Assembly (NCBI RefSeq): GCF_024494595.1
Contig: NZ_JANHDI010000007.1
Location: 186,001-250,000, forward strand
Length of the DNA: 64,000 bases
Reading direction: 5' to 3'
DNA from: Halobellus rarus
Lineage (GTDB): Archaea > Halobacteriota > Halobacteria > Halobacteriales > Haloferacaceae
Shown here: positions 9,941 to 24,211 of the stretch, piece by piece
Position numbering within the stretch: position 1 is the stretch's first letter
How the letters are laid out: each line of letters opens with the position of its first letter
The notes under the pieces: model-generated
Seen by the model: the letters and a program-made list of their open reading frames with translations, nothing else
Told to the model about the DNA's origin: nothing
The model's database searches: none
Program-made: the position numbers and the translations under genes

Positions 9941-10014
9941 GCCGCCTTAGCTCAGACTGGGAGAGCACTCGACTGAAGATCGAGCTGTCCCCGGTTCAAA
10001 TCCGGGAGGCGGCA
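9941..10014 (+). tRNA. tRNA-Phe (anticodon GAA)
   Basis: The cloverleaf is complete. Acceptor strands are GCCGCCT and AGGCGGC with discriminator A. The anticodon stem CTCGA/TCGAG encloses CTGAAGA (anticodon GAA), and the T arm is CCCGG-TTCAAAT-CCGGG. CCA is not encoded. A TATA-like tttttatata sits at 9909-9918, about 25-30 bp upstream. Confidence 0.97.
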
Positions 10015-10052: not shown

Positions 10053-10160
10053 ACTCGACTGAAGATCGAGCTGTCCCCGTTCCCGCGAGCGAAGCGAGCG
10101 GGAAGCCGAAAGACGAGCGGCAGCGAGTCTTTCGGAAGTTCACAATCCGGGAGGCGGCAT
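10053..10160 (+). pseudogene. Broken partial copy of tRNA-Phe interrupted by two hairpins
   Basis: Positions 10053-10079 repeat 27 nt of tRNA-Phe (9967-9993: anticodon arm to T stem) exactly. Positions 10144-10160 repeat its last 16 nt plus one flanking base (9999-10015) exactly. The 64 nt between them replace the T loop. They hold hairpin 1 (CCCGC 10082-10086, loop gagcgaagcga, GCGGG 10098-10102) and hairpin 2 (CCGAAAGAC 10106-10114, loop gagcggcagcga, GTCTTTCGG 10127-10135). Acceptor 5' strand and D arm are absent, so it cannot make a tRNA. Confidence 0.75.
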
Positions 10161-10189
10161 TTCCCTACGAAGAAGTGAGCAGTGACGAC

Positions 10190-10359
10190 ACTCCCGACTG
10201 GATTCGAACCAGCGAGCAAATCTGTGATCTGCAAGTGAGGTCCACACGCCCAGAGGCGGAATCCCTTTTCGACACGGCCCGCATTCGGGGGCAGTACGCA
10301 CTCGACCGAAGGCCGATCTGCCTCCATTCCCACGAGCGGATTGCGCGTCCGATCCGCTC
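10190..10359. repeat. Further decayed tRNA-like fragments and a hairpin
   Basis: On the minus strand, ctggttcgaatccag (around 10196-10210) looks like a T arm, preceded by a 7-bp hairpin with loop aca (GCAGATC/GATTTGC, one wobble pair). On the plus strand, from about 10302, actcgaccgaaggccgatctg resembles the tRNA-Phe anticodon arm a third time. It is followed by a perfect 8-bp hairpin GAGCGGAT/ATCCGCTC (10334-10341, 10352-10359) that overlaps the stop of the next gene. From 10161 to 10357 there is no other gene. Confidence 0.4.
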
Positions 10360-12319
10360 ACTCGACGTAACACTTCTGTCGTTCCGTCCACAGCACGGCG
10401 TAGAGGACGACGACGACGCTCGGGATCGAAAACCCGAGCAGTTCCACGAGCGTCGCGTTCGGAAACTGCATCGTCGCCAACTGCTGAATCCCGACCAGGA
10501 CCGCCAGGATACTGAAGATCGACACGACGACGTTCTTCCCGAACGTGTACTTCATGTCCCGGCGAACTTCCACCGAGTCGTTCACGCTCATATCCACCTT
10601 GTCCCGCTCGGTGCTCGGGATGAACACCTCGGGGTGCGTGTCGTTTCGATCGACGATTCTGAGGAGGTGGTCGTCCCCGTCGGCCGGGGTCACGATTCGT
10701 TCGTCGCGGTCGAGCGGTGGTAGACACTTCGCCGTCACGGACTCGTCGCGCCACGTGAGTACCACTCTGTCTCCGGGGTCGATTCCGAGCTGTTCGATGA
10801 CAGTCCGATCGAGCCGCACGATGTTCCGTCGCTCGTCCTGCTCGTATCCGGGGAGGACGCGCACGTGCATCGCGTTGTAGTCGACGAAGCGTTCTCCGAG
10901 TTCTTCCGTGAACCGTCGACGCAGCGTCCGTTCGGGATTCGACTCCAGTGCGCTGGTCGGGCGGATTTTGACTGTGCTTCGCGTCGCGTCCACGTCGACC
11001 GGCGAGACGTCCAACAGGGCTGCGATGTCGTTGTGGAGACGGATATCGTCCTTGTCGAACTGTCTCTGTACGTACTTCTTGGCCCGCAATTGGATCCGGC
11101 GGCCGTTCGTCCGGTTTATGGCTTCGATGTATTCCCCGGGTTCGATGTCGATATCGACCTCGTCGCTCTCGAAGAAATCGCGGTGGATGTGGCAGACGTC
11201 GTGATCGATGTAGCCGCGCTTCTGCTGCTGCGTGTGGGAGGTCTCGCGACGGACCGTCATCGTCCGCGACGAGACCGCCGAGGGAGAAATGACCACGCGG
11301 GAGTTCCCCTCCTCGACGCTGCAGCCGATCTCGTTCTGGAGGTTCGTCCGAATACAGATCTTGTGGCGGCCGTCGTCCGTCCGGTGATACTCCGAGGGAT
11401 GGTACGAGGCGAAGGAGGCAGCCAACAACGACCGCGTGTACTTCTCGTCGGTCACGTCGGCCGCACGGATGTCGACGTAGTCGTATTCCTCGATCCCCAG
11501 CCGATCGAGCAGTTCCTCGGGCAGTATCACCCAGTTACTCAGTTTATCCAGGTCGTTGTCCCAGCTCGTATCGTGGAACGCGGAGATCGTATCGCAGACG
11601 GCCTCGACCTCCTCGGTCTCCTCCAGCGGAATTCCGTCGACTTCGTACACCGGGACGAACGCGCCGCTACTGTCGTCCCACTCGGCGGTTGTCCGCAGGA
11701 ACGCTTCGCGGAACTGCCGACTGAGAGCCGCGTCGTACAGCTCACCCAACAGGCCGATTCCGGCCATCAGCCGCGCGTGGTACACGTCGTTCTTCGCCGG
11801 CTTTGGCCCCTCCGGAATCGCGTCGGGCGCGTACACGTACGTCTGGATTTCCTCCGGGACGTCGAATCCCCGCGACGCGAGCTGCGCCTCGGACGGATAC
11901 GGCTCGATCGCCGGCGGATCGTACGTCCGGAGCTCGTATGGCGACTCGGTCCGACCGACGATCTCGAACTCCTCATCAGTTAGTCCGCGAATGATCGTCC
12001 CGTTGATGACGTCGCTCTCATCGCCCGTGTAGCGGACGTCCAGCATCGTGCCACCCCGCGGCGACTCCATCGAGTAGTGCCGCCTGAAGCCTCGGACCCT
12101 GACCGGAACGACGTCGATCCGGTCGGATACCTCCCACCACGCCTCCAGCTCGTCGCGCCTGATCAGCGGCGCGTCGGTCTCGCTGTCGTAAACCGCTTCG
12201 ATAGCGGGTGACGGATTCCGCGTCCGCGAAACGATGCTGAGCGGCGAAATGAGGCTCCCGTACGCGAAGATAGAGTGACCGTCCACGTCCGAATCGACGT
12301 CCGGTGTCTCGTCGGCCAT
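10358..12319 (-). CDS. GGCT-like domain fused to AbrB/beta-barrel-like modules and a two-TM C-terminus
   Basis: This 653-aa protein has three parts. Residues about 15-235 look like a gamma-glutamylcyclotransferase fold: the signature YGSL (20-23), GTMLDVRYTGDES, an acidic TESPYELRTYD stretch that may hold the catalytic Glu, and a closing helix. Residues about 260-590 carry repeated short units such as NWVILPEELLDRLGI, NIVRLDRTVIEQLGIDPGDR and VFIPSTERDKVDMSVNDSVE, with the strand-turn-helix 'LGI.PGD.V' pattern of AbrB or double-psi-barrel domains; I count about six. Residues about 597-645 form two TM helices. I know no described protein with this layout. It may be a membrane-tethered sensor or binding protein; enzyme activity is unproven. 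Confidence 0.82.
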   Translation of the reverse strand: MADETPDVDSDVDGHSIFAYGSLISPLSIVSRTRNPSPAIEAVYDSETDAPLIRRDELEAWWEVSDRIDVVPVRVRGFRRHYSMESPRGGTMLDVRYTGDESDVINGTIIRGLTDEEFEIVGRTESPYELRTYDPPAIEPYPSEAQLASRGFDVPEEIQTYVYAPDAIPEGPKPAKNDVYHARLMAGIGLLGELYDAALSRQFREAFLRTTAEWDDSSGAFVPVYEVDGIPLEETEEVEAVCDTISAFHDTSWDNDLDKLSNWVILPEELLDRLGIEEYDYVDIRAADVTDEKYTRSLLAASFASYHPSEYHRTDDGRHKICIRTNLQNEIGCSVEEGNSRVVISPSAVSSRTMTVRRETSHTQQQKRGYIDHDVCHIHRDFFESDEVDIDIEPGEYIEAINRTNGRRIQLRAKKYVQRQFDKDDIRLHNDIAALLDVSPVDVDATRSTVKIRPTSALESNPERTLRRRFTEELGERFVDYNAMHVRVLPGYEQDERRNIVRLDRTVIEQLGIDPGDRVVLTWRDESVTAKCLPPLDRDERIVTPADGDDHLLRIVDRNDTHPEVFIPSTERDKVDMSVNDSVEVRRDMKYTFGKNVVVSIFSILAVLVGIQQLATMQFPNATLVELLGFSIPSVVVVLYAVLWTERQKCYVE

Positions 12320-13419: not shown

Positions 13420-14613
13420 TCACAGCCGTTCGCGATACTCCAGTTCTCCGTCGAAGGCGTTCTCGAGGATCCCCTCGAGATCCTCGACGTCGGTCGTCCT
13501 CGGATTGCCCGTCAGGCTGCCGTCTTCGAGCGCCTGTTCGGCCAGCCGCGGGATCGCCTCTCGCTCGGCAGCCGTCTCCTGGAGCGTGTCCGGGATGCGG
13601 ACGGACTCACCCAGCCGGCAGACCGCGCGGACGGCTCTGTAGCCCTCGACTGCGGCGGGCTTCGTGCGGTCGACGTCCTCTCCGAGCGCCTCGGCGATGT
13701 CGACCATCAGTTCGGGGGCCTGCGGGAGGTTGTACTCCATCACGTACGGGAGGATGATCGCGTTCGCGAGCCCGTGCGGGACCCCGAACGCGCCGCCGAC
13801 CTGGTGGGAGATGGCGTGGACCGCGCCGAGACCCGCCCCGTTGAACGCCATCCCGGCCTGCATACTGGCGCGGGCCATCTTCGAGAGGGCCTCGCGGTCG
13901 CCGCCGCGGTACTCCACCGCCTGCGGGAGGTGTTCGCCCACCGTCTCGATCGAATCGAGCGCGAGCGCCGACGTCTGGCTCTGCGCCTTGATCGACACGT
14001 ACGCCTCGACGGCGTGCGTGAGCACGTCCATTCCCGTCGCGGCCTTGATCGGGGCGGGCGCGCTGGCGGTGAGTTCGGGATCGACGAGCGCCAGATCCGC
14101 CAGCAGTTTCACGTCGCCGATCTCCTCTTTTATGTCGGTCTCCGTGTCCTTGACGATGGTCCAGTGGCCGACCTCGCTGCCGGTCCCGGCCGTCGTCGGG
14201 ACGTAGATGCTCGGCGGCGGCTGATTCGGGACGTTGCCGCTCCCCGTGTAATCGAGGATGTGCCCGTCGTTCGTCGCGACGATGCTCGCCGCCTTCGCCG
14301 TGTCGATCGACGACCCCCCGCCGACCCCGACGATGAGGTCCGCGCCGGCGGCGTCGTACGCGTCGGCGGCGTCGTGGACGATCCGGTCCGTCGGGTCCGG
14401 CTGGACGCCGGACCAGACCTCGTAGTCCGCACCCGCTTCCTCGATCGAATCGAGGAGCGAGTCGAGGACGCCCGCCTGCACGACGCCCTCGTCGGTGACG
14501 ACGAAGGCTCGCTCGGCGTCGAATGTCTCTACGTACGTTCCGATCTCCGATGCGGCACCCCAGCCGAAGAGCATCCTGTTGGGGGCGTTCCACAGTTCCA
14601 GTGAGTCTGTCAT
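13420..14613 (-). CDS. Iron-containing alcohol dehydrogenase
   Basis: This 397-aa NAD(P)-dependent dehydrogenase belongs to the type III (Fe-ADH) family. The nucleotide site GVGGGSSIDTAKA and the GTGSEV turn are present. The metal ligands are seen as D and H in DVLTHAVEAY, then H in AISHQVGG and H in GVPHGLANA. It would interconvert an alcohol or hydroxy acid with the matching aldehyde or keto acid in the cytoplasm. Its neighbours on the same strand (M81 hydrolase, ALDH) and the importer nearby suggest catabolism. About 200 bp of promoter-like DNA (14614-14817) separates it from the M81 gene, so it probably has its own promoter. Confidence 0.92.
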   Translation of the reverse strand: MTDSLELWNAPNRMLFGWGAASEIGTYVETFDAERAFVVTDEGVVQAGVLDSLLDSIEEAGADYEVWSGVQPDPTDRIVHDAADAYDAAGADLIVGVGGGSSIDTAKAASIVATNDGHILDYTGSGNVPNQPPPSIYVPTTAGTGSEVGHWTIVKDTETDIKEEIGDVKLLADLALVDPELTASAPAPIKAATGMDVLTHAVEAYVSIKAQSQTSALALDSIETVGEHLPQAVEYRGGDREALSKMARASMQAGMAFNGAGLGAVHAISHQVGGAFGVPHGLANAIILPYVMEYNLPQAPELMVDIAEALGEDVDRTKPAAVEGYRAVRAVCRLGESVRIPDTLQETAAEREAIPRLAEQALEDGSLTGNPRTTDVEDLEGILENAFDGELEYRERL

Positions 14614-14817
14614 AGTCGTGTGTCGTGAATCAGTTCGTGGGCGAGATCGGCGGGGACGGTCGCGTCACTCGGCCCGCTGTGTCCGGATCGTGTCCGCTTC
14701 GGCGCATCACTATTCTGTCTCATATATGTGGTGCGTTAAGTGTGGTCACGGACACGTACGTCGTGAGCGGTGGTTTTCCCGTGGGCTCGATCGGCCCCGG
14801 GCAGCGAATTCAGCGGT

Positions 14818-16290
14818 TCACTCTCCATCGAGCGGGTACTTCGGCCGCTGGACCTGTTCGTAATCGAACGACGAGAGGTCGGGGCTGCACAGTCCGGGCG
14901 CGGATACCTCCCTGATCGTCCCGGCGATCGGTTCGAAAGCCGCTCGGTAGTGAACGGTGCTCTTCAGGACCAGCACGCGCTGTCGTTCGGGGGTAACTCC
15001 CTGGCTCCGGAACACCTCCGGGTCGTACGGCTGCTGACGGTGGGAGCCGACGATCACGTCGATTCCGTCGATTTCGAGCACCGCCGTCCGCTCGAAGGAG
15101 ACCTGCAATCCGGTCGACATCGGCCCCTGATTTCGGTAGGTGCCGTCCGAGAGGGATCGGACGTAGGCATCGACGGAGATCGGATCGCCGTTGTCCTCGA
15201 TGTGCCCGCCCAGTTCGACGGAGAGCGACTCCCCCACGCCGGCCTCGACCGCCGCGTCGACCGCCGCCGGGTCGTAGATGGCGGCGACGGCGACGTCCTC
15301 GACACCCGCCTCCAGCAGCGCCTCCAGGATCACGGTGCCGTCCTCGGCGCTCCCGCCACCGGGGTTGTCCGCGATGTCGGCGAGCAGCAGCGGGCCCTCG
15401 GTCGCGTCCCAACCGCTCGCCTCCTCGACCGCCTCCGCGACGCTCGTGTACGACCGATCGAACTCGTGGCGTCGGTCGTCGGCCTCGGCCGCGATTCCGG
15501 CGCAGTCGTCCCGCGTCTCGTCTGCGAGGGACTCGTCGGTGACGCCGACGACGCTGAACCCGGCCTCGGGGACGTCAGCGTACGCGAACCCGCCGAAGAC
15601 CGAGACGTCCGGTACCTGCGCGGACTCGGCGTCGCCCGCGGCGTCGAGCAGCGACGCCATCGGTTCGTCGGCCGTCTGGAGCACCGGAAGCGGCGGCAAG
15701 AGCGGCGCTCGCTCGACGACGATCGTCGGATCCAGTCCCCCGTTCAGCGTCGCGGCCATCGCCCGCGCGGCCGTCTCGCCGGTCTCCCCGATATCGACGT
15801 GCGGGTAGGTGTCGTACCCGAAGAGGCCGTCGGCGTGGTCGACCATCCGATCGGAGATGTTCGCGTGGAGATCCAGCGTCGCCATCACCGGGACGTCCTC
15901 GCCCGCGGCCTCGCGCACGCGTTCGAGGATGTAGCCATCGCCGTCGCGGTCGCGCTCCGATACCATCGCGCCGTGGAGACCGAGCAGGACGGCGTCCGGG
16001 TCGGACTCTTCGATCCCCGCGAGCAACCGCTCGACGAACGCGTCGAGCGCATCGGCGGTCACGACGCCGCCGGGGGTCGCGTTCGCCGCCACCGTCGGAA
16101 CGACCTCCCATCCTTCTTCGTCCGCGACGCGGAGGAACCCCCCGAGATCCGTGTTCGTCCCGCGGAACTCGGGCACGATTTCGCCACCTCGGAACAGCGA
16201 CGTCGACTCGAACTCCGCGCGACCGGTCGACAGCGACGAGAACGTGTTCGTCTCGTGTTTGATCCGGGCGACGAGGACGGTCTCCGTCAT
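14818..16290 (-). CDS. M81 family metallohydrolase (MlrC-like)
   Basis: This 490-aa enzyme opens with LVARIKHETNTFS, the hallmark of the M81/DUF1485 family. Candidate metal ligands lie in GLHGAMVSE, LDLHANIS and GYDTYPHVD. MlrC, the family founder, cleaves linear microcystin products; most members are uncharacterised amide hydrolases. The start ATG at 16288-16290 overlaps the stop of the aldehyde dehydrogenase gene (ATGA), so the two are translationally coupled. The frame is open much further upstream but that is antisense noise within the ALDH gene. Next to a PuuA-like ligase it could hydrolyse a gamma-glutamyl or similar amide, which is inference. Confidence 0.92.
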   Translation of the reverse strand: MTETVLVARIKHETNTFSSLSTGRAEFESTSLFRGGEIVPEFRGTNTDLGGFLRVADEEGWEVVPTVAANATPGGVVTADALDAFVERLLAGIEESDPDAVLLGLHGAMVSERDRDGDGYILERVREAAGEDVPVMATLDLHANISDRMVDHADGLFGYDTYPHVDIGETGETAARAMAATLNGGLDPTIVVERAPLLPPLPVLQTADEPMASLLDAAGDAESAQVPDVSVFGGFAYADVPEAGFSVVGVTDESLADETRDDCAGIAAEADDRRHEFDRSYTSVAEAVEEASGWDATEGPLLLADIADNPGGGSAEDGTVILEALLEAGVEDVAVAAIYDPAAVDAAVEAGVGESLSVELGGHIEDNGDPISVDAYVRSLSDGTYRNQGPMSTGLQVSFERTAVLEIDGIDVIVGSHRQQPYDPEVFRSQGVTPERQRVLVLKSTVHYRAAFEPIAGTIREVSAPGLCSPDLSSFDYEQVQRPKYPLDGE

Positions 16291-17735
16291 CGGTAGGGGT
16301 CCTCCATCTCGTCGAACTCGACGACGACGCTGTCGACCGTCGTGAACGCCTCGACGCCTTCGAGGCCGCCCTCCCGGCCGATACCGCTCTCCTTGTTGCC
16401 GCCCCACGGGCTCTGCGGCATCGACACCGGGAAGGTGTTGATCGCGACCAGGCCGTGATCGAGGCGGTCGGCCATCCGGGCGGCGTCTATGCTCTCGGTC
16501 CAGATCGCCGCGGCGAGGGCGTACGGCGAGTCGTTGGCGACCGAGAGTGCCTCCTCGGTCGAGCCGACGGGAACGATGGACAGCACCGGCCCGAAGATCT
16601 CCTCGCAGGCGACCGTCATCGACGGGTCGACGTCGTCGAAGACGGTCGGCTCGACGAACGTTCCCCCGGCGAGCGCGTCGTCGTCGGGGACGCCGCCGCC
16701 GGTCAGAAGCGTCGCGCCCTCCTCTTTCGCCGACTCGACGTACGAGAGGATGTCCTCGCGGGCGCCCTCGGAGATCACCGGCCCCATGTCCGTCTCGGGG
16801 TCGATGCCGGGGCCGAGCGTGATGCGCTCGGTCTTCTCGACGATCTTCTCGACGAGCTCGTCGTGGACGGACTCGTGGACGAGACACCGCGAGGTCGCGA
16901 CGCAGTTCTGCCCGGCGTTCGAGAAGATGCCCGCGACGACGCCCCGCGCGGCGTTTTCGAGGTCGGCGTCGGGCAGGACGATCGAGGGCGCTTTCCCGCC
17001 CAGTTCGAGGTCGACGGGCGTGATGTGCTCCGCCGCGGATTTGAGGACGCCCTTGCCGACGCCGGTCGATCCGGTGAACGTGATGGCGTCGACGTGCGCG
17101 TTCGCGGACAGTTCGGCCCCGACCTCGCCGCCAGGGCCCGGAACGACGTTGACGACGCCGTCGGGGAACTCCTCCAGCAGGATCTCGCCGATCCACATCG
17201 TCGACAGCGGGGCCTGCGTCGGCGGCTTCGCGACGACGGTGTTGCCCGTCGCCAGCGCGCTCGCGATCCCGCGCGTCCCCAGGAGGAGGGGGTAGTTCCA
17301 CGGGACGACGTGGGCGGTGACGCCGTAGGGGACGCGACGGGTGTAGTTCAGGCGGTTCGACGCCGTCGGAACGGTGTCGCCGCGGACCTTGTCGGTGACG
17401 CCCGCGTAGAACCGGAACTGAGCGGCGGTCTCGGCGACCTCGCCTTCGGCCGTCGCGAGACACTTGCCCGTCTCTCGGGAGAGGAGTTCAGCGATGTCGT
17501 CGGCTTCGGCCTCGATTCGATCGGCGACGGCGCGGAGCGGCCGCTCGTACTCGACGGGCGAGCGCGCTTCCCACTCTCGTTTCACCGCGTCTGCCGCCTC
17601 GATGGCCGTCCGCGCGTCGCTCGCATCGCCCTCCGCGACGCGCCCCACCGCCTCGCCCGTCGCCGGATCCGCGACTCGGATCGTCTCCGGCGTCGAGCGA
17701 CGGTCTCCGTCGATCAACAGTTCGTAGGATACCAT
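16287..17735 (-). CDS. NAD(P)-dependent aldehyde dehydrogenase
   Basis: This 482-aa class 3/ALDH superfamily enzyme has VVPWNYPL in the cofactor domain, FTGSTGVGK, the general base Glu in LELGGKAPSI, and the nucleophile Cys in NAGQNCVATSR. It oxidises an aldehyde to the acid in the cytoplasm; sequence resembles succinate-semialdehyde and aminoaldehyde dehydrogenases, so a polyamine-derived aldehyde is plausible. The M81 gene follows with a 4-bp overlap. Its start lies 219 bp from the divergent glutamine-synthetase-like gene, and a TATA-like element (TATATAAAAA on the coding strand, about 17786-17796) precedes it. Confidence 0.93.
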   Translation of the reverse strand: MVSYELLIDGDRRSTPETIRVADPATGEAVGRVAEGDASDARTAIEAADAVKREWEARSPVEYERPLRAVADRIEAEADDIAELLSRETGKCLATAEGEVAETAAQFRFYAGVTDKVRGDTVPTASNRLNYTRRVPYGVTAHVVPWNYPLLLGTRGIASALATGNTVVAKPPTQAPLSTMWIGEILLEEFPDGVVNVVPGPGGEVGAELSANAHVDAITFTGSTGVGKGVLKSAAEHITPVDLELGGKAPSIVLPDADLENAARGVVAGIFSNAGQNCVATSRCLVHESVHDELVEKIVEKTERITLGPGIDPETDMGPVISEGAREDILSYVESAKEEGATLLTGGGVPDDDALAGGTFVEPTVFDDVDPSMTVACEEIFGPVLSIVPVGSTEEALSVANDSPYALAAAIWTESIDAARMADRLDHGLVAINTFPVSMPQSPWGGNKESGIGREGGLEGVEAFTTVDSVVVEFDEMEDPYR

Positions 17736-17954
17736 ACCCCCACTGGCCGAGAAGCCCGCCTAAGCGTTGCCCGGTTGATGTGGGAGTTTTTATATACCGA
17801 CGCGCGGCCCGGACCCGATCCCGCGGAACGGACGCCATCGGAGCGGTCGCCCACAACGAGGGTTCTTCTGTCGTGCTACGAGTTCGCATAAAAGCAGCCG
17901 CAAGCCTGCGGGTGAACTCATATACTCCGATAGGGACCTCAGTAGCCTATTCCG
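17736..17954. promoter_or_regulatory. Divergent promoter region between ALDH and GS-like genes
   Basis: The 219 bp hold a TATA run facing the ALDH (tttttatata, 17786-17795) and a TATA-like tatact (17921-17926) about 30 nt before the GS-like ATG. A small hairpin CCGCA-agcc-TGCGG (17898-17911) lies between them. A shared regulator, perhaps the HTH-10 protein encoded at 19283-20002, could act here. Confidence 0.5.
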
Positions 17955-19286
17955 ATGACCACGTTTTCAGAGTACGACAACGTCCGGCTCGTGTGGACGG
18001 ATCTCAACGGCGTCGCCCGCGGGATCACCGTCCCGGGCGAGGAGGCCGAACACGCACTGGAGGAGGGCGTCGGGTTCGCAAACGGCGTCGCGGAACTGAC
18101 GCTCGAACCCGGACTGCTCGATAACCCACACTACGGGGCGGAGGGCGGGGATATGATGGCGGTTCCCGACGTCGACTCCGTGACGCCCGTCGAGTGGGCC
18201 GACGACACGGCCGCCGTCTTCACCAGCCTCAGCAACGTCGATGGGTCGCCGTTCGATCTGTGCTCCCGAGGCGCGCTCGAAAACGTCCTGGACGAACTCG
18301 AAGACGAAGGATACCGGGCGCTCGCGGGCGTCGAAACGGAGTTCTCGCTGCTCAGCCCGGACGGGGACGGCGGCTGGGTCCCGTACAACGACCGCTGTTC
18401 GTACGACCTCGACGCCATCGACATGAGCTCGGAGCTCATCTCGGAGTGGCGCTCGGCGATGGAGACCGCCGGCTACAACGTCCTCGGCGTCCACCAGGAG
18501 TCCCAGCCCGGACAGTACGAGGTCAACATCGAGTACGACGACGCGCTGACGACCGCGGACGGCATCATGTTCTTCCGGCATATGGCCAAATCGGTCACCC
18601 GGAAGCACGGCCACAAGGCGTCGATGATGCCGCGGCCCCACTCCGGCGAGGACGCCAACGGCCTCCATTTCCACCTCTCGCTTTGGGACCTCGACGAATC
18701 CGAGAACCAGTTCGCCAGCGACACCGGCGACATCCGGTTCCCGGCCGGGAAACACCCGGCGGGCGAGTCGGGCCTCTCCGAGGAGGGCCGGTACTTCATC
18801 GGCGGCCTCCTCGAACACATGAAGGCGCTGACGGCGATCTGTGCGCCGACCGTCAATTCCTACAAGCGGTTGTTGCCGGGCATCTGGGCCCCGGTCAACA
18901 TCGCTTGGGGGCCGGACAACCGCTCGACCGTCCTCCGACTGCCGCCGGAACTCGGGCCGGCGACGCGCGTCGAACACCGCGTCCCCGACTCGTCGTGTAA
19001 CCCCTACCTCGGGATGGCGGCGTCGCTCGCGGCGGGGCTCGACGGCATCCGCAACGAGATCGATCCCGGTGAGCCGACCCTCAAGAACGCCTACGAGGAG
19101 GACTACGAGCGCCTGCCGCGGACGCTCTGGTCGGCGCTCGACCACCTCGAAGCCGACGACGTCCTCGTCGAGATGCTCGGGCCGTCGCTGGTCGAGTCGT
19201 TCGTGAAACTCAAGCGCGACGAGTTCAACCGCTCGATGGACCACATCTCGTCGTGGGAGCGCGACGAGTACCTCGACGAGTTCTAG
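17955..19286 (+). CDS. Glutamine-synthetase-family ligase, PuuA/gamma-glutamylamine synthetase-like
   Basis: This 443-aa protein is a type I GS homologue. Active-site elements are GVETEFSLL, GQYEVNIEYDDAL, the ATP/metal His in NGLHFHLSLW, APVNIAWGPDNRS, and the final RVEHRVPDSSCNPYL. It ligates glutamate to an amine with ATP. The short N-terminus and divergence from housekeeping GlnA, together with the linked ALDH and Pot-like importer, favour a gamma-glutamyl-polyamine synthetase, the first step of the Puu route, over ammonia assimilation. Its stop and that of the convergent regulator share the palindrome CTAG at 19283-19286, so the two genes overlap tail to tail. Confidence 0.92.
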   Translation: MTTFSEYDNVRLVWTDLNGVARGITVPGEEAEHALEEGVGFANGVAELTLEPGLLDNPHYGAEGGDMMAVPDVDSVTPVEWADDTAAVFTSLSNVDGSPFDLCSRGALENVLDELEDEGYRALAGVETEFSLLSPDGDGGWVPYNDRCSYDLDAIDMSSELISEWRSAMETAGYNVLGVHQESQPGQYEVNIEYDDALTTADGIMFFRHMAKSVTRKHGHKASMMPRPHSGEDANGLHFHLSLWDLDESENQFASDTGDIRFPAGKHPAGESGLSEEGRYFIGGLLEHMKALTAICAPTVNSYKRLLPGIWAPVNIAWGPDNRSTVLRLPPELGPATRVEHRVPDSSCNPYLGMAASLAAGLDGIRNEIDPGEPTLKNAYEEDYERLPRTLWSALDHLEADDVLVEMLGPSLVESFVKLKRDEFNRSMDHISSWERDEYLDEF

Positions 19287-20002
19287 TTCTTCTGGACACC
19301 CATCCGATCCGGGCGGTCGAGCATCGGCGCGACCGCCTTCAGGATCTTCGCCTCCGACCGGCGGAGGTGTTCGCCGACGGTCGAGGTGTTCGCGGAGTCG
19401 AGTTCGGCCAGTTCCTCGATGTTACACGACCGCGGCGAGTCGTAGTACCCCTCCTCGATCGCCCGAGAGAGCACTTCGAGTTGGCGCGGCGAGAGGTCCT
19501 GGACCGCCTCTTTGACCTCCGTCAGGCCGGTGAGAAGCCCGTCGAGGTCGGGCGAGCGGAGCGAGTCGACGTCGACGGAGCCGATCTGTCGCAGTTCGTC
19601 GTGAGCGGTGCTCACCTGCTCGTGGCTCGACGCGAGGACGCTCCAGTGCTCGCGGCCGCGAGCGACCGTCGCCGGAATCGTCGGGAAGCAGCTGTTCCGC
19701 AGCAGGACGTTCAGCACGGGCTCGGTGTCGGTGTCGTAATCGCCTGAGAGGCTGACGAACGCCTTCTGTCGCCTGTCGTCGTAACTGACGAGTTGGCTCG
19801 TGTTCATCACGGGGTGGTCTTCGAGCCACGCGACCAGTTCGTCGAGTTCTCCCTCCTCGATCCGCGTCAACTCGACCATCGTGATGCTCGTTCCGGTGAG
19901 GCGGTAGGAGTAGATGATCGTCGCTCTCACCCCTGGAAAGGTGTCGTTGAGGTCGGCGGTCCAGCAGCCCCGGTGTTTGATACTGAACGTGTATTCGAGC
20001 AT
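19283..20002 (-). CDS. bat-like HTH-10 transcription regulator
   Basis: From the ATG at 20000-20002 the protein has 239 aa. The N-terminal region (about 1-165) is the variable sensor part of haloarchaeal bat-type regulators and begins MLEYTFSIKHRGCWTADL. The C-terminal HTH-10 domain (about 180-235) is LSPRQLEVLSRAIEEGYYDS, then an Asn/Glu-rich helix and GEHLRRSEAKIL. It probably controls the neighbouring importer and catabolic genes. A longer frame upstream would add 37 residues without family similarity. Its end overlaps the GS-like gene by 4 bp. Confidence 0.85.
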   Translation of the reverse strand: MLEYTFSIKHRGCWTADLNDTFPGVRATIIYSYRLTGTSITMVELTRIEEGELDELVAWLEDHPVMNTSQLVSYDDRRQKAFVSLSGDYDTDTEPVLNVLLRNSCFPTIPATVARGREHWSVLASSHEQVSTAHDELRQIGSVDVDSLRSPDLDGLLTGLTEVKEAVQDLSPRQLEVLSRAIEEGYYDSPRSCNIEELAELDSANTSTVGEHLRRSEAKILKAVAPMLDRPDRMGVQKN

Positions 20003-20129
20003 AGTCGGCGTCGTGCCGTCTGACAGCCTCCCGTTACGCATACGGATATATACGGTATCGGATGCCGGCAAATACGCCGGACCGGTTCCGGATTGTCCGC
20101 TTATCGGGCGCAAAAACCGATGGTGACGC

Positions 20130-20945
20130 TCACTCGCCCTCGTCGACGCTCCGGTATTCGAGCACCGCCGCGCCGATGACGAGCAGAATCGACACGTAGA
20201 AGATGAGCGACGCCACGGCCGGCACGACCGGCGTGAAGCCCTGCGTCATCCGGCCGTGGATCCACGTCGTGATCGTACTCTGTGGGCCCGAGAGGTAGGA
20301 GACGATGTAGTAGTTGTTCCACGAGAGCACGAACGCGAAGATCGCCCCGGAGACGACGCCGTCGGCGATCAGCGGCAGCAGGATCTTCCGATACAGCGTC
20401 ACGGTGTCGGCTCCGAGGTCCTTCGCCGCCTCCTCGATGTTCGGGTCGATCCCCAGCGCGGTGATCGAGACGACGAACATCACGATGGGCGAGATCCAGA
20501 CCAGTTCGCCGATGATCGACGGGACGACCCCGTAGCCGAGGTTGATCTGACTCGCCCACATCGACATCCCCAGTCCGAGGAGGATGAGCGGGAAGAAGAT
20601 CGGCAGCAGCGCGAACAGTTTGAACTGCTCGCGGAACGGGAACTCATACCGCGTGTACGCGATGGCGGCCGCCGTCCCGATGATCGTACTCAGGATCGTG
20701 ACCGGGACGGAGATGTACACCGTGTTGGTGAACGCCCCGCGGACGCTGCCCGAGGTGAGCGCCGCCTCGTACCAGTTGAGCGTGAACTCGTAGTCCACGA
20801 TCGAGAAGAACCGGCCGTCGTAGAACGACGCGATGACGAGGCTCACGAGCGGCGTCATCAGGAAGAGCGCGACGAGTCCGACGTAGACGTACCAGAGGCC
20901 GTCACCGAATCTGTCGCCGAGCCCCGAGGAGTGTTTCGTGCTCAT
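20130..20945 (-). CDS. ABC importer permease, PotC-like
   Basis: This 271-aa inner-membrane permease has six predicted TM helices and the EAA loop EEAAKDLGADTVTLYRKILLP that docks on the ATPase. It pairs with the permease encoded just upstream to form the translocation path of a spermidine/putrescine-type importer. The ATG at 20943-20945 lies right after the upstream stop codon (20948-20950). A TTG two codons earlier would overlap that gene and is less likely. Confidence 0.92.
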   Translation of the reverse strand: MSTKHSSGLGDRFGDGLWYVYVGLVALFLMTPLVSLVIASFYDGRFFSIVDYEFTLNWYEAALTSGSVRGAFTNTVYISVPVTILSTIIGTAAAIAYTRYEFPFREQFKLFALLPIFFPLILLGLGMSMWASQINLGYGVVPSIIGELVWISPIVMFVVSITALGIDPNIEEAAKDLGADTVTLYRKILLPLIADGVVSGAIFAFVLSWNNYYIVSYLSGPQSTITTWIHGRMTQGFTPVVPAVASLIFYVSILLVIGAAVLEYRSVDEGE

Positions 20946-20947
20946 AC

Positions 20948-21880
20948 TCAATCACCTCGCGCAGCGATCTCTCGCAGATCGATCGTTCGAAGGATGACGA
21001 CGCCAGCGACGACGGTGATGAGCAACAGCCCGACCGCCTGCGTCGATCCGAGCGGCCAGTTCTGCGAGTAGCCGAAGGAGTACTGGATGTTGCTCGCCAT
21101 CGTGAAGATCGACCCGCCGCCGAGGATCTCCGCCTCGACGTTGGCGCCCAGGCTCAGGACGAACACGAACAGCGAGCCGATGATGATGCCCGGTTTGCTC
21201 AGCGGCAGCAGGATCTTCCGGAAGAGCGTCAATCGGCTCGCCCCGAGGTCCTTCGCCGCCTCCAGCGTCGTGTCCTCGATACTGAGCATCGAGAGGTAGA
21301 TCGGGAACAACATGAACGGCAGGTAGATGTACGTCGTTCCCAGGATGATCGTCGAACGGCGGTACATCAGCGAGGCGTACTCCTGGACGCCGAACAGGGA
21401 GACGATGCTCTCGAGGACCCCGTTCTGAACGAGGAAGAGCGCCCACCCGAACACCCGGATGTTCACGCTGGTGAAAAGCGGGATGATCAGGATCATCAGG
21501 AAGACCAGCTTGTACCGGGTGATCTTGTGCGCGAGCGCGTACGCCGCCGGGTACGAAACGATCAGCGTGAGCGCCGTCGTCGTGATGCTCACCGCGACGG
21601 TGTTGACGAGGACGTCGCCGTAGACACCCTCGCCCGATGCCATCCCGCCGATCACCTCTTGGTAGGTCGCGATCGACCACTCGAGGGGGTTCAGCGCGAT
21701 GGCGTTCCCCGTCTGGAACGAGAAGACGACGATCGCGAGCATCGGCCCGATGAACATACACAAAAGTAGGAGGGCCATCGGCGCGATCAGAATCCCGGGC
21801 GGCGAGAGGAGCCGGCGTACCGGGTTTTCGTCCCCTTCCAACGCGTCGATCTCGGCTCGGAGTGTCTCTATCGTCGACAT
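20948..21880 (-). CDS. ABC importer permease, PotB-like
   Basis: The 310-aa permease starts at the ATG at 21878-21880, which lies 5 bp after the ATPase stop. After a charged N-terminal segment it has six TM helices and the EAA motif LEAAKDLGASRLTLFRKILL. It forms a heterodimer with the PotC-like permease. Gene order SBP, ATPase, PotB, PotC with gaps of 34 bp or less shows a single operon. A frame extension to 21922 overlaps the ATPase gene and adds no conserved sequence. Confidence 0.92.
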   Translation of the reverse strand: MSTIETLRAEIDALEGDENPVRRLLSPPGILIAPMALLLLCMFIGPMLAIVVFSFQTGNAIALNPLEWSIATYQEVIGGMASGEGVYGDVLVNTVAVSITTTALTLIVSYPAAYALAHKITRYKLVFLMILIIPLFTSVNIRVFGWALFLVQNGVLESIVSLFGVQEYASLMYRRSTIILGTTYIYLPFMLFPIYLSMLSIEDTTLEAAKDLGASRLTLFRKILLPLSKPGIIIGSLFVFVLSLGANVEAEILGGGSIFTMASNIQYSFGYSQNWPLGSTQAVGLLLITVVAGVVILRTIDLREIAARGD

Positions 21881-21885
21881 CGGAA

Positions 21886-22950
21886 TCACTCCGGCACCAG
21901 GATGGACTTCGCGGAGTCCCACTGGAGGAACACCGTGTCACCCTTCTCGATGTTCGTGGCCCTGAACTCGTCGACGGGCATCTCGGCGACGTACTCCCCG
22001 TCGGCCGCCGGCGACCCACACTCGATCAGCACGGTGTTACCGCGCACGAGCACGTTCTCGACGTCGACTTCGAGGCCGAGATCCTCGGTGAGTTCGGTCT
22101 CGACGGCGGTGTCGTCGTACCGCACGACCAGATACTTCGGTTCGCCGTGGTCGTGGTGGTAGGGAACGGTGGTCGTCTGTGCGAACAGCGATGACTGCAC
22201 CTCGTAGCTGCCGCCCTTCTGTTCGACGCCGTCGAGTTCGAAGACGTTCGCGTCGCCCATAAACTCCGCAATGAACTTCGTGTTGGGCTGGCGGTAGATG
22301 TCCTCGGGCGACCCCGTCTGGATGATGTCCCCGTCGTCGAGGACGAACAGCTTGTCACTCATCAGGAGCGCCGACTCCAGCGAGTGAGTGACGTAGATGA
22401 ACGTCATATCCAACTCGTCGTTGAGGTCCGCGAGTTCGCGCTGGAGGCGCTTCCTGAGCACGTAGTCCAGCGACGCGAGCGGTTCGTCCAAGAGGAGGAT
22501 ATCTGGGTTGTAGGCCAGTGAGCGCGCGAGCGCGACCCGCTGTTTCTGCCCACCGGAGAGTTCCGTCGCTTGTTTGTCCGCGTGGACGTCGGGGTCCAGG
22601 CGCACCTGTTCGAGGAGTTCCTCGACCCGGTCTCCGATCTCGATGCCGTTGTTCCGCATCGGGAATTCGATGTTCTCCCGAACGGTCATATGGGGGAACA
22701 GCGCCCACGACTGAAACACCAGACTCGTCGGACGGTTCTGTGGTTCGGTATAGGTAATGTCCTCGCCGTTCAGTTCGACGGTCCCCGAGGTCGGCTCCTG
22801 GTGGCCCGCGAGCATCCTGAGCAGCGTCGTCTTGCCACAGCCGCTCGGCCCCACGATCGTCGCGAACTGCCCGGTCTCGATCTGTAGGTCGACGTCGTTG
22901 ACGGCGACTAAGGAACCGTACTCCGCTCTGAGGTTTGTTGCTTGTAGCAT
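21886..22950 (-). CDS. ABC importer ATPase, PotA-like
   Basis: This 354-aa ATPase has Walker A GPSGCGKTT, signature LSGGQKQR, Walker B ILLLDEPLASLD and switch His in VTHSLESA. Residues about 240-354 form the TOBE-type regulatory extension (MOI domain) usual in PotA and MalK homologues. It energises uptake by the two permeases from the cytoplasmic side. The start at 22950 lies 34 bp after the substrate-binding protein gene. Confidence 0.93.
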   Translation of the reverse strand: MLQATNLRAEYGSLVAVNDVDLQIETGQFATIVGPSGCGKTTLLRMLAGHQEPTSGTVELNGEDITYTEPQNRPTSLVFQSWALFPHMTVRENIEFPMRNNGIEIGDRVEELLEQVRLDPDVHADKQATELSGGQKQRVALARSLAYNPDILLLDEPLASLDYVLRKRLQRELADLNDELDMTFIYVTHSLESALLMSDKLFVLDDGDIIQTGSPEDIYRQPNTKFIAEFMGDANVFELDGVEQKGGSYEVQSSLFAQTTTVPYHHDHGEPKYLVVRYDDTAVETELTEDLGLEVDVENVLVRGNTVLIECGSPAADGEYVAEMPVDEFRATNIEKGDTVFLQWDSAKSILVPE

Positions 22951-22984
22951 AGTGATAAATGAAAGGTAACGTCGCGACGGCGAT

Positions 22985-24211
22985 TTATATCCGCGACTTC
23001 GCTTCCCGCCAGATGGGTTCGAACTTCTCCAGGTCCGGCACTCCGGTGTAGAAGACGGAGTTGTCGACGATGTCCGGGATCTCGTCGATCCGGAGCACCT
23101 CCCGCTGTTCGTCGTTGAGTTCGTCGATCGCCGTCTGGTGCGGGACGGCGTTAGTCCCGCCGGAGGTGGGCCACATCAGGTTCTTGGCGGTCTCGCCCTG
23201 CTGCATGTACGCGAGGTAGTTGTCCGAGACGGTCGGCTGGTCGCCCTTCATCATACAGGTCGTCTCGACCCAGATGACGCCGCCCTCCTCGGGGACGTGC
23301 GCCTCGAACTGGAGGTCGCCGCCGCGGCGGAGCGTCCCGTTGATCCAGCTGCCGGAGATGAAGCCGATGTCGATCTCGCCGGACTTCATCGCCTGGTTCA
23401 TCGACGCGAAGTCCGGAAGCAGCGTCTTCGCGTTGTCGAAGAGGTCGAACGTCGCCTGCCGGACCTGCTCGACCTCCTCGTCGGTGTGTTCCTTGTACGG
23501 ATCGATCCCCTCCCGGAGCATGATGATCTGGATCGCCCAGAACATCAGATCGTACACGCCGACGTCGTAGTCCTCCATCCAGGCGGCGTCGTAGCTGCTG
23601 TAGTCGGCCTGGTTGACGGTGTCTTTGTTCACGACGAACGACGCCCAGCCGAACCGCTGGGGGACGCCGTACATCGTCCCGTCGATGTCGAACGAGTAGT
23701 CGTCCTCGTCGAGGAAGGCGTAGGCGTACCCCTCGTCCTTCGTGAACATATCGATGTACTTGTCGAAGGTGTACGGTTCCCACTCCTCGTAGTTCAGCGG
23801 TCGGATCAGTTCCGCCTCCGCGAGATCAGGCAGCCACGCCATATCGAACGTGGCCTGGTGGAACTGCTCCCACTCGCCGGACTGGAGTCGGTTGAACGCC
23901 TGCGGGTTCGAGGTGAAGAGGTCGAGTTGGGTGTCGCAATCGAACTGGTCACGGAACGGGTCCTGGACGTTCGAGGCGTCGTAGCCGGTCCACGTCAGGT
24001 GATTGATCGTCTCACCCGTCTCGTCCTCGTCGCTCGGTTCGTACAGCGCGTCGTACTCCTCTGCGGGCACGGCCGCGAGTTCTTGGGTCCGCCAGGACGA
24101 CTCGCCGCCCCCGCCGCCACCACCGAGACAGCCGGTGATGGCGGCTAACCCGGCCGTGGCCGTGGCAGCCTGCATATACTCCCGCCGCGTAAACGGATTT
24201 TCTCTTGACAT
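22985..24211 (-). CDS. Tat-exported lipoprotein, PotD/family 1 solute-binding protein
   Basis: The 408-aa precursor has a twin-arginine signal (TRREYMQAA) and a lipobox ending ITGCLGG followed by a Gly-rich linker, so it is exported folded and anchored outside. The mature part is a periplasmic-binding-protein fold with Trp, Asp and Tyr-rich segments (LTWTGYDAS, DMAWLPDLAEAELI), as in polyamine binders where acidic and aromatic residues hold the ligand. Substrate is inferred from the PuuA-like and ALDH genes nearby. The start at 24211 is chosen; an ATG at 24226 is in frame and possible. First gene of the importer operon. Confidence 0.9.
   Translation of the reverse strand: MSRENPFTRREYMQAATATAGLAAITGCLGGGGGGGESSWRTQELAAVPAEEYDALYEPSDEDETGETINHLTWTGYDASNVQDPFRDQFDCDTQLDLFTSNPQAFNRLQSGEWEQFHQATFDMAWLPDLAEAELIRPLNYEEWEPYTFDKYIDMFTKDEGYAYAFLDEDDYSFDIDGTMYGVPQRFGWASFVVNKDTVNQADYSSYDAAWMEDYDVGVYDLMFWAIQIIMLREGIDPYKEHTDEEVEQVRQATFDLFDNAKTLLPDFASMNQAMKSGEIDIGFISGSWINGTLRRGGDLQFEAHVPEEGGVIWVETTCMMKGDQPTVSDNYLAYMQQGETAKNLMWPTSGGTNAVPHQTAIDELNDEQREVLRIDEIPDIVDNSVFYTGVPDLEKFEPIWREAKSRI

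Follow-up and report, generated by a model that had tools for sequence, protein, structure and literature searches.

A predicted ChaC-like domain fused to a membrane-anchored barrel array in Halobellus rarus, and its split relatives among archaea

We analyzed a 64,000-nucleotide stretch of Halobellus rarus DNA (hereafter, the window), which lies on contig C21 of a draft assembly 3.66 Mb in size, and confirmed that this haloarchaeal genome carries a genuine gene with the fused layout at positions 10358–12319. Sequence comparison points to this gene as the natural fused form of a conserved archaeal module, in which a membrane-anchored barrel protein would be combined with a small enzyme. From the N-terminus, the protein consists of a GGCT-like domain (residues 15–215), six half-units interpreted as three barrels (residues 262–588) and two transmembrane (TM) helices (Table 1). 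A sequence-only reading had already placed a fusion at these positions; our ORF check of the window found an ATG-initiated frame of 653 codons spanning them exactly, and added the minus strand, which that reading had not given. In the literature library searched, no paper was found that describes the GGCT–barrel–TM layout. When the fusion protein was used as a single query against genome contigs, no relatives were found; a second scan of the contigs yielded a single locus, in the same-genus genome of Halobellus captivus.

Table 1. Positions of the fusion gene, its predicted parts and the adjacent tRNA sequences in the window
Feature	Residues	Position	Strand	Basis
Fusion gene	653 aa	10358..12319	-	Single ORF, ATG start; coding frame by codon score
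GGCT/ChaC-like domain (YGSL 20-23; probable catalytic E125, Y128)	15-215	11675..12277	-	Separate-gene homologues; hhalign to ChaC 92.7%; PDB 2jqv E 0.0016
Fusion junction (site of gene 1 stop/gene 2 start in split relatives)		11597..11660	-	Alignment of ends and sequence
Barrel 1 (half-units 262-285 and 320-345)	238-372	11204..11608	-	hhalign to barrel 2 37.7%; weakest of three
Barrel 2 (half-units 375-402 and 425-453)	372-478	10886..11206	-	hhalign to barrel 3 86.7%; aspartate decarboxylase-type DPBB in PDB
Barrel 3 (half-units 499-523 and 564-588)	478-594	10538..10888	-	CDC48_N E 4.9e-8; DPBB structures in PDB
TM helix 1	597-615	10475..10531	-	Hydropathy, kept in 15/15 rows
TM helix 2	625-643	10391..10447	-	Hydropathy, kept in 15/15 rows
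Intact tRNA-Phe(GAA), downstream of fusion gene		9941..10014	+	
Broken tRNA-Phe 3' half copy		10053..10160	+	27 nt + 17 nt exact

The tRNA-derived debris noted earlier beside the gene was borne out: an intact tRNA-Phe is followed by exact copies of parts of its 3' half (10053–10079 and 10144–10160). This broken copy is consistent with a past integration at the site, and acquisition of the fusion gene via the tRNA site is possible. A palindromic insert splits the broken 3' half (region 10053–10260), and a tRNA-Cys-like piece on the minus strand near 10190–10250 was read by eye; ARAGORN makes no call there, and the piece has only one other match in its own genome (85% over 34 nt). Just upstream of the fusion gene, at 13420–24175, lies a set of genes reminiscent of gamma-glutamyl-polyamine or amine catabolism, which encode an Fe-alcohol dehydrogenase, an MlrC-like peptidase, an aldehyde dehydrogenase, a glutamine-synthetase-III/gamma-glutamylputrescine-synthetase-like protein and a PotABCD-type transporter. 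This cluster might supply gamma-glutamyl substrates.

Domain composition of the fusion protein

The N-terminal region was accepted as a ChaC-like GGCT domain on the basis of profile comparison. We compared the GGCT-like family profile with a ChaC profile based on the E. coli K-12 protein and five of its relatives from alphaproteobacteria, and obtained an hhalign probability of 92.7% (E = 4e-7) with the catalytic Glu in register, compared with a maximum of 1.4% for the controls (40 column-shuffled ChaC profiles, a reversed profile and 52 unrelated families). The profile of adjacent-gene members alone gave 87.6%. In the family alignment, G-S-L of the YGSL motif (Y20-G21-S22-L23) is invariant, as is E125, which aligns with the glutamate of the ChaC RE motif, and the Tyr three residues on is shared; the invariant G-S-L, Glu and Tyr are common to separate-gene homologues and distant relatives. 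The best PDB match of the family profile was the AIG2-like structure 2jqv, and the NCBIfam ChaC model matched 2/12 family members (best E = 0.001). The GGCT-like assignment made from the sequence alone can be narrowed to ChaC-like. Profile comparison was positive for ChaC at the family level, but a Pfam search of the window's N-domain alone gave no GGCT match. Two AlphaFold models, one from the single sequence and one from a two-row alignment, reached pLDDT values of only 40 and 37, respectively, too low to read a fold from. Haemagglutinin matches of the GGCT profile were weak and judged to be due to chance, and an M17_N match was confined to a single member with a score below the cut-off.

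The domain resembles glutathione-specific ChaC (PF04752, E. coli ChaC) in its YGSL motif, its G-W/Y-x-R segment, its RE-like Glu in register and the full length of the profile alignment. However, sequence identity is only ~16%, the window copy has TE where ChaC has RE, an insertion occurs at about residues 46–70, the domain is tied to a membrane barrel protein, and its host makes gamma-glutamylcysteine rather than glutathione. The superfamily motif is also shared with GGACT/AIG2-like proteins (PF06094, PF13772; the group of 2jqv), but the profile probability against haloarchaeal PF06094 proteins, themselves encoded by separate genes, was only 35%. The GGCT-like family of the fusion protein includes a hypothetical protein of a Paraburkholderia megaplasmid with an apparent N-terminal signal sequence (L104, 4824–5732), and at another locus (L076, 3186–6013) a GGCT-like gene that lacks a barrel partner shares 4 nt with the end of a Hef-type helicase gene.

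The central region contains six half-units of the 'L.I..GD.V' type, and a reading of residues 262–588 as three double-psi/CDC48-N-type barrels, each built from paired half-units, is supported by profile and structure matches. At the sequence level the repetition of half-units exceeds chance, because CDC48_N (PF02359) matched 15/15 members of the barrel family (best E = 5.6e-19). The window copy itself scored 33.5 bits (E = 4.9e-8), just under the Pfam cut-off of 35.1, and a distant member exceeded the cut-off with 47.3 bits. The sequence-only reading had described about six AbrB/beta-barrel units; the six half-units stand, with barrels 2 and 3 matching each other at 86.7%, but AbrB fits less well than Cdc48-N, which that reading had also named: the window copy falls below the curated cut-offs for MazE (23.7 versus 24.7 bits) and AbrB (19.9 versus 28.3 bits), whereas complete pairs and the best PDB matches (DPBB proteins and aspartate decarboxylase) favor DPBB/CDC48-N. 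AbrB/MazE swapped-hairpin DNA-binding domains share the LGI..GD.V half-unit motif; unlike them, the fusion protein carries six units per chain, is predicted to be membrane anchored and lacks a toxin partner. It resembles the DPBB of the CDC48/VAT N-domain in its repeated half-units and in the CDC48_N match of every family member, but differs from CDC48/VAT in having three tandem barrels and a C-terminal membrane hairpin, and a domain search found no AAA ATPase domain in the fusion protein. Conserved barrel residues are E399, G406, R408, R453, D495, E496 and R502.

The two TM helices proposed earlier hold, as both hydrophobic segments recur in every homologue. The pair is flanked by basic residues and the short loop between the helices is uncharged, which suggests that both ends of the protein and the barrels lie in the cytoplasm.

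The two parts as neighboring genes

Of 391 haloarchaeal genomes surveyed, 14 contain the barrel-TM family and 15 contain the GGCT-like family. Both occur together in eight genomes (hypergeometric P = 1.4e-9 for at least eight by chance), each of which has the two parts side by side or fused. Six pairs are co-oriented with overlaps of 19–22 nt and a conserved GGGTGAT-like ribosome-binding site before the GTG or TTG start of the second gene; one of these six is the window genome's own paralog pair on contig C2. Two pairs are convergent (G080 and G276). A distant pair in haloarchaeon G171 overlaps by 8 nt, and in G499, which belongs to the same phylum outside haloarchaea, the same pair lies one base apart. 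Some family copies are plasmid-borne. The comparison shows that the enzyme-like part and the barrel-TM part are co-inherited, in most cases as neighboring genes that overlap. The layout is not the one-off that 'unusual' had implied: the genome survey revealed a conserved linked pair, of which the window holds the sole fused copy found. Pairwise distances of the two parts were strongly correlated (Mantel r = 0.967, 11 pairs, 0/5000 permutations as high), which we take as evidence of co-inheritance rather than contact because related sequences share history.

Other neighbors were also observed. In G519, a non-haloarchaeal member of the same phylum, the barrel-TM gene is directly preceded by a gene for a different protein, which has 273 aa and a YGSN motif, was recognised by eye and apparently represents another GGCT subfamily (L115, 1618–3351). 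Six barrel loci lack a GGCT partner, and at five of them the neighbor is a GNAT acetyltransferase gene; three of these are convergent, in three genera (G101, G252 and G253), and two are divergent, in syntenic regions of sister Halobellus species. Genomes encode 14–22 GNATs, and we estimate the chance of such a neighbor at ~1% per locus. GNAT would seem to stand in for GGCT with other barrel proteins. At the convergent loci (L038, 9677–11307; L039, 7830–10456; L036, 8726–10079), two adjoin lysine-biosynthesis genes (lysA/dapE and dapF). In genome G056 (L124, 4589–6511), a distant barrel-TM gene is followed by a DppA-like D-aminopeptidase gene, as judged by eye.

Alternative readings

We considered the possibility, raised for a sensor by the earlier reading, that the protein is a sensor or regulator. 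Its GGCT-like domain would then serve, solely or additionally, to bind a gamma-glutamyl compound, and signal relay would fall to the barrel-membrane part. The patchy distribution, the conserved pairing with a barrel array and the conserved barrel residues would fit such a role. However, even the most distant partner genes retain YGSL and the probable catalytic Glu, which favors catalysis, and no output domain such as a kinase or HTH was seen; we regard this reading as unlikely. Slightly less likely again is a role in detoxification or small-molecule modification, whereby a ChaC-like or GNAT partner would act at the membrane to inactivate an amine or a gamma-glutamylated compound. The interchange of GGCT-like and GNAT partners agrees with it, as do the gamma-glutamylputrescine-synthetase-like, aldehyde dehydrogenase and polyamine-type ABC transporter genes adjoining the window gene, but this polyamine-like cluster is not conserved at the other GGCT–barrel pair loci.

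The junction bears on whether two overlapping genes were joined by a frameshift introduced during sequencing or assembly. In relatives, the second gene starts inside the end of the first in another frame, so that one indel could fuse both; moreover, the window copy is the only fused one among the relatives found, and the assembly is a draft. However, the relatives' stop codon and the GTG/TTG start/stop overlap motif are both absent from the junction, and the sequence there has diverged together with the remainder of the gene. This argues against a simple sequencing error, and we consider an artifact improbable.

A defense or toxin–antitoxin system with AbrB/MazE-like units binding DNA is the least probable reading, and the DNA-binding scaffold suggested earlier likewise lacks support: the weak MazE/AbrB matches, patchy occurrence, plasmid copies and tRNA scar are offset by PADLOC and PHROG searches without a meaningful match, by full half-unit pairs that score as DPBB/CDC48-N in a membrane-anchored protein, and by the lack of toxin genes beside barrel genes, whose partners are GGCT-like or GNAT. 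Neither a phage search nor four viral scans turned up any relatives, and together with the defense-family searches they leave DNA binding and phage defense unsupported.

Proposed function

The best overall explanation, to which we assign an even balance of probability, is a fused two-gene module in which ChaC-like gamma-glutamyl cleavage takes place at the membrane and the barrels place or regulate the enzyme. In such a module, the TM hairpin would anchor the barrels and the enzyme on the cytoplasmic side of the membrane, and the GGCT-like and barrel-TM parts would form one complex. ChaC/GGCT enzymes convert gamma-glutamyl compounds to 5-oxoproline and an amine, and the enzyme domain would cut gamma-glutamyl amino compounds in this way. 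By binding a ligand or a partner protein, the barrels may position or regulate the enzyme; this is the weakest step of the scheme.

In haloarchaea, gamma-glutamylcysteine takes the place of glutathione as the main low-molecular thiol, and the enzymes for its synthesis and reduction are known. It would be the likeliest abundant substrate, and the most likely work of the protein, judged from its sequence, is gamma-glutamyl cleavage, perhaps of gamma-glutamylcysteine, at the inner membrane face. The ligase gene gshA was present in 21/21 genomes checked, a result of little discriminating power for a gene that is near-universal; its distance from the barrel gene is 3–8 kb in G003 and G006. The concentration of gamma-glutamylcysteine in haloarchaea is ~4 mM, and a review of archaeal thiols names no cyclotransferase that breaks it down (PMC7278568). 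Because the enzyme occurs in <4% of haloarchaea although most make gamma-glutamylcysteine, it is not the general turnover enzyme; the rarity of the module also speaks against a housekeeping role, and we favor a niche membrane-associated complex that would cleave gamma-glutamyl compounds. A broader and more doubtful proposal is a membrane system spread across archaea, whose multi-barrel anchor would recruit interchangeable ChaC-like, YGSN-type GGCT or GNAT enzymes and control the gamma-glutamylcysteine or amine pool in response to a barrel-bound ligand.

These results offer a candidate for gamma-glutamylcysteine breakdown in haloarchaea, a conserved GGCT-like enzyme linked to a barrel protein of the membrane, and suggest that CDC48-N-type barrels may here form a multi-barrel membrane module that lacks an ATPase.
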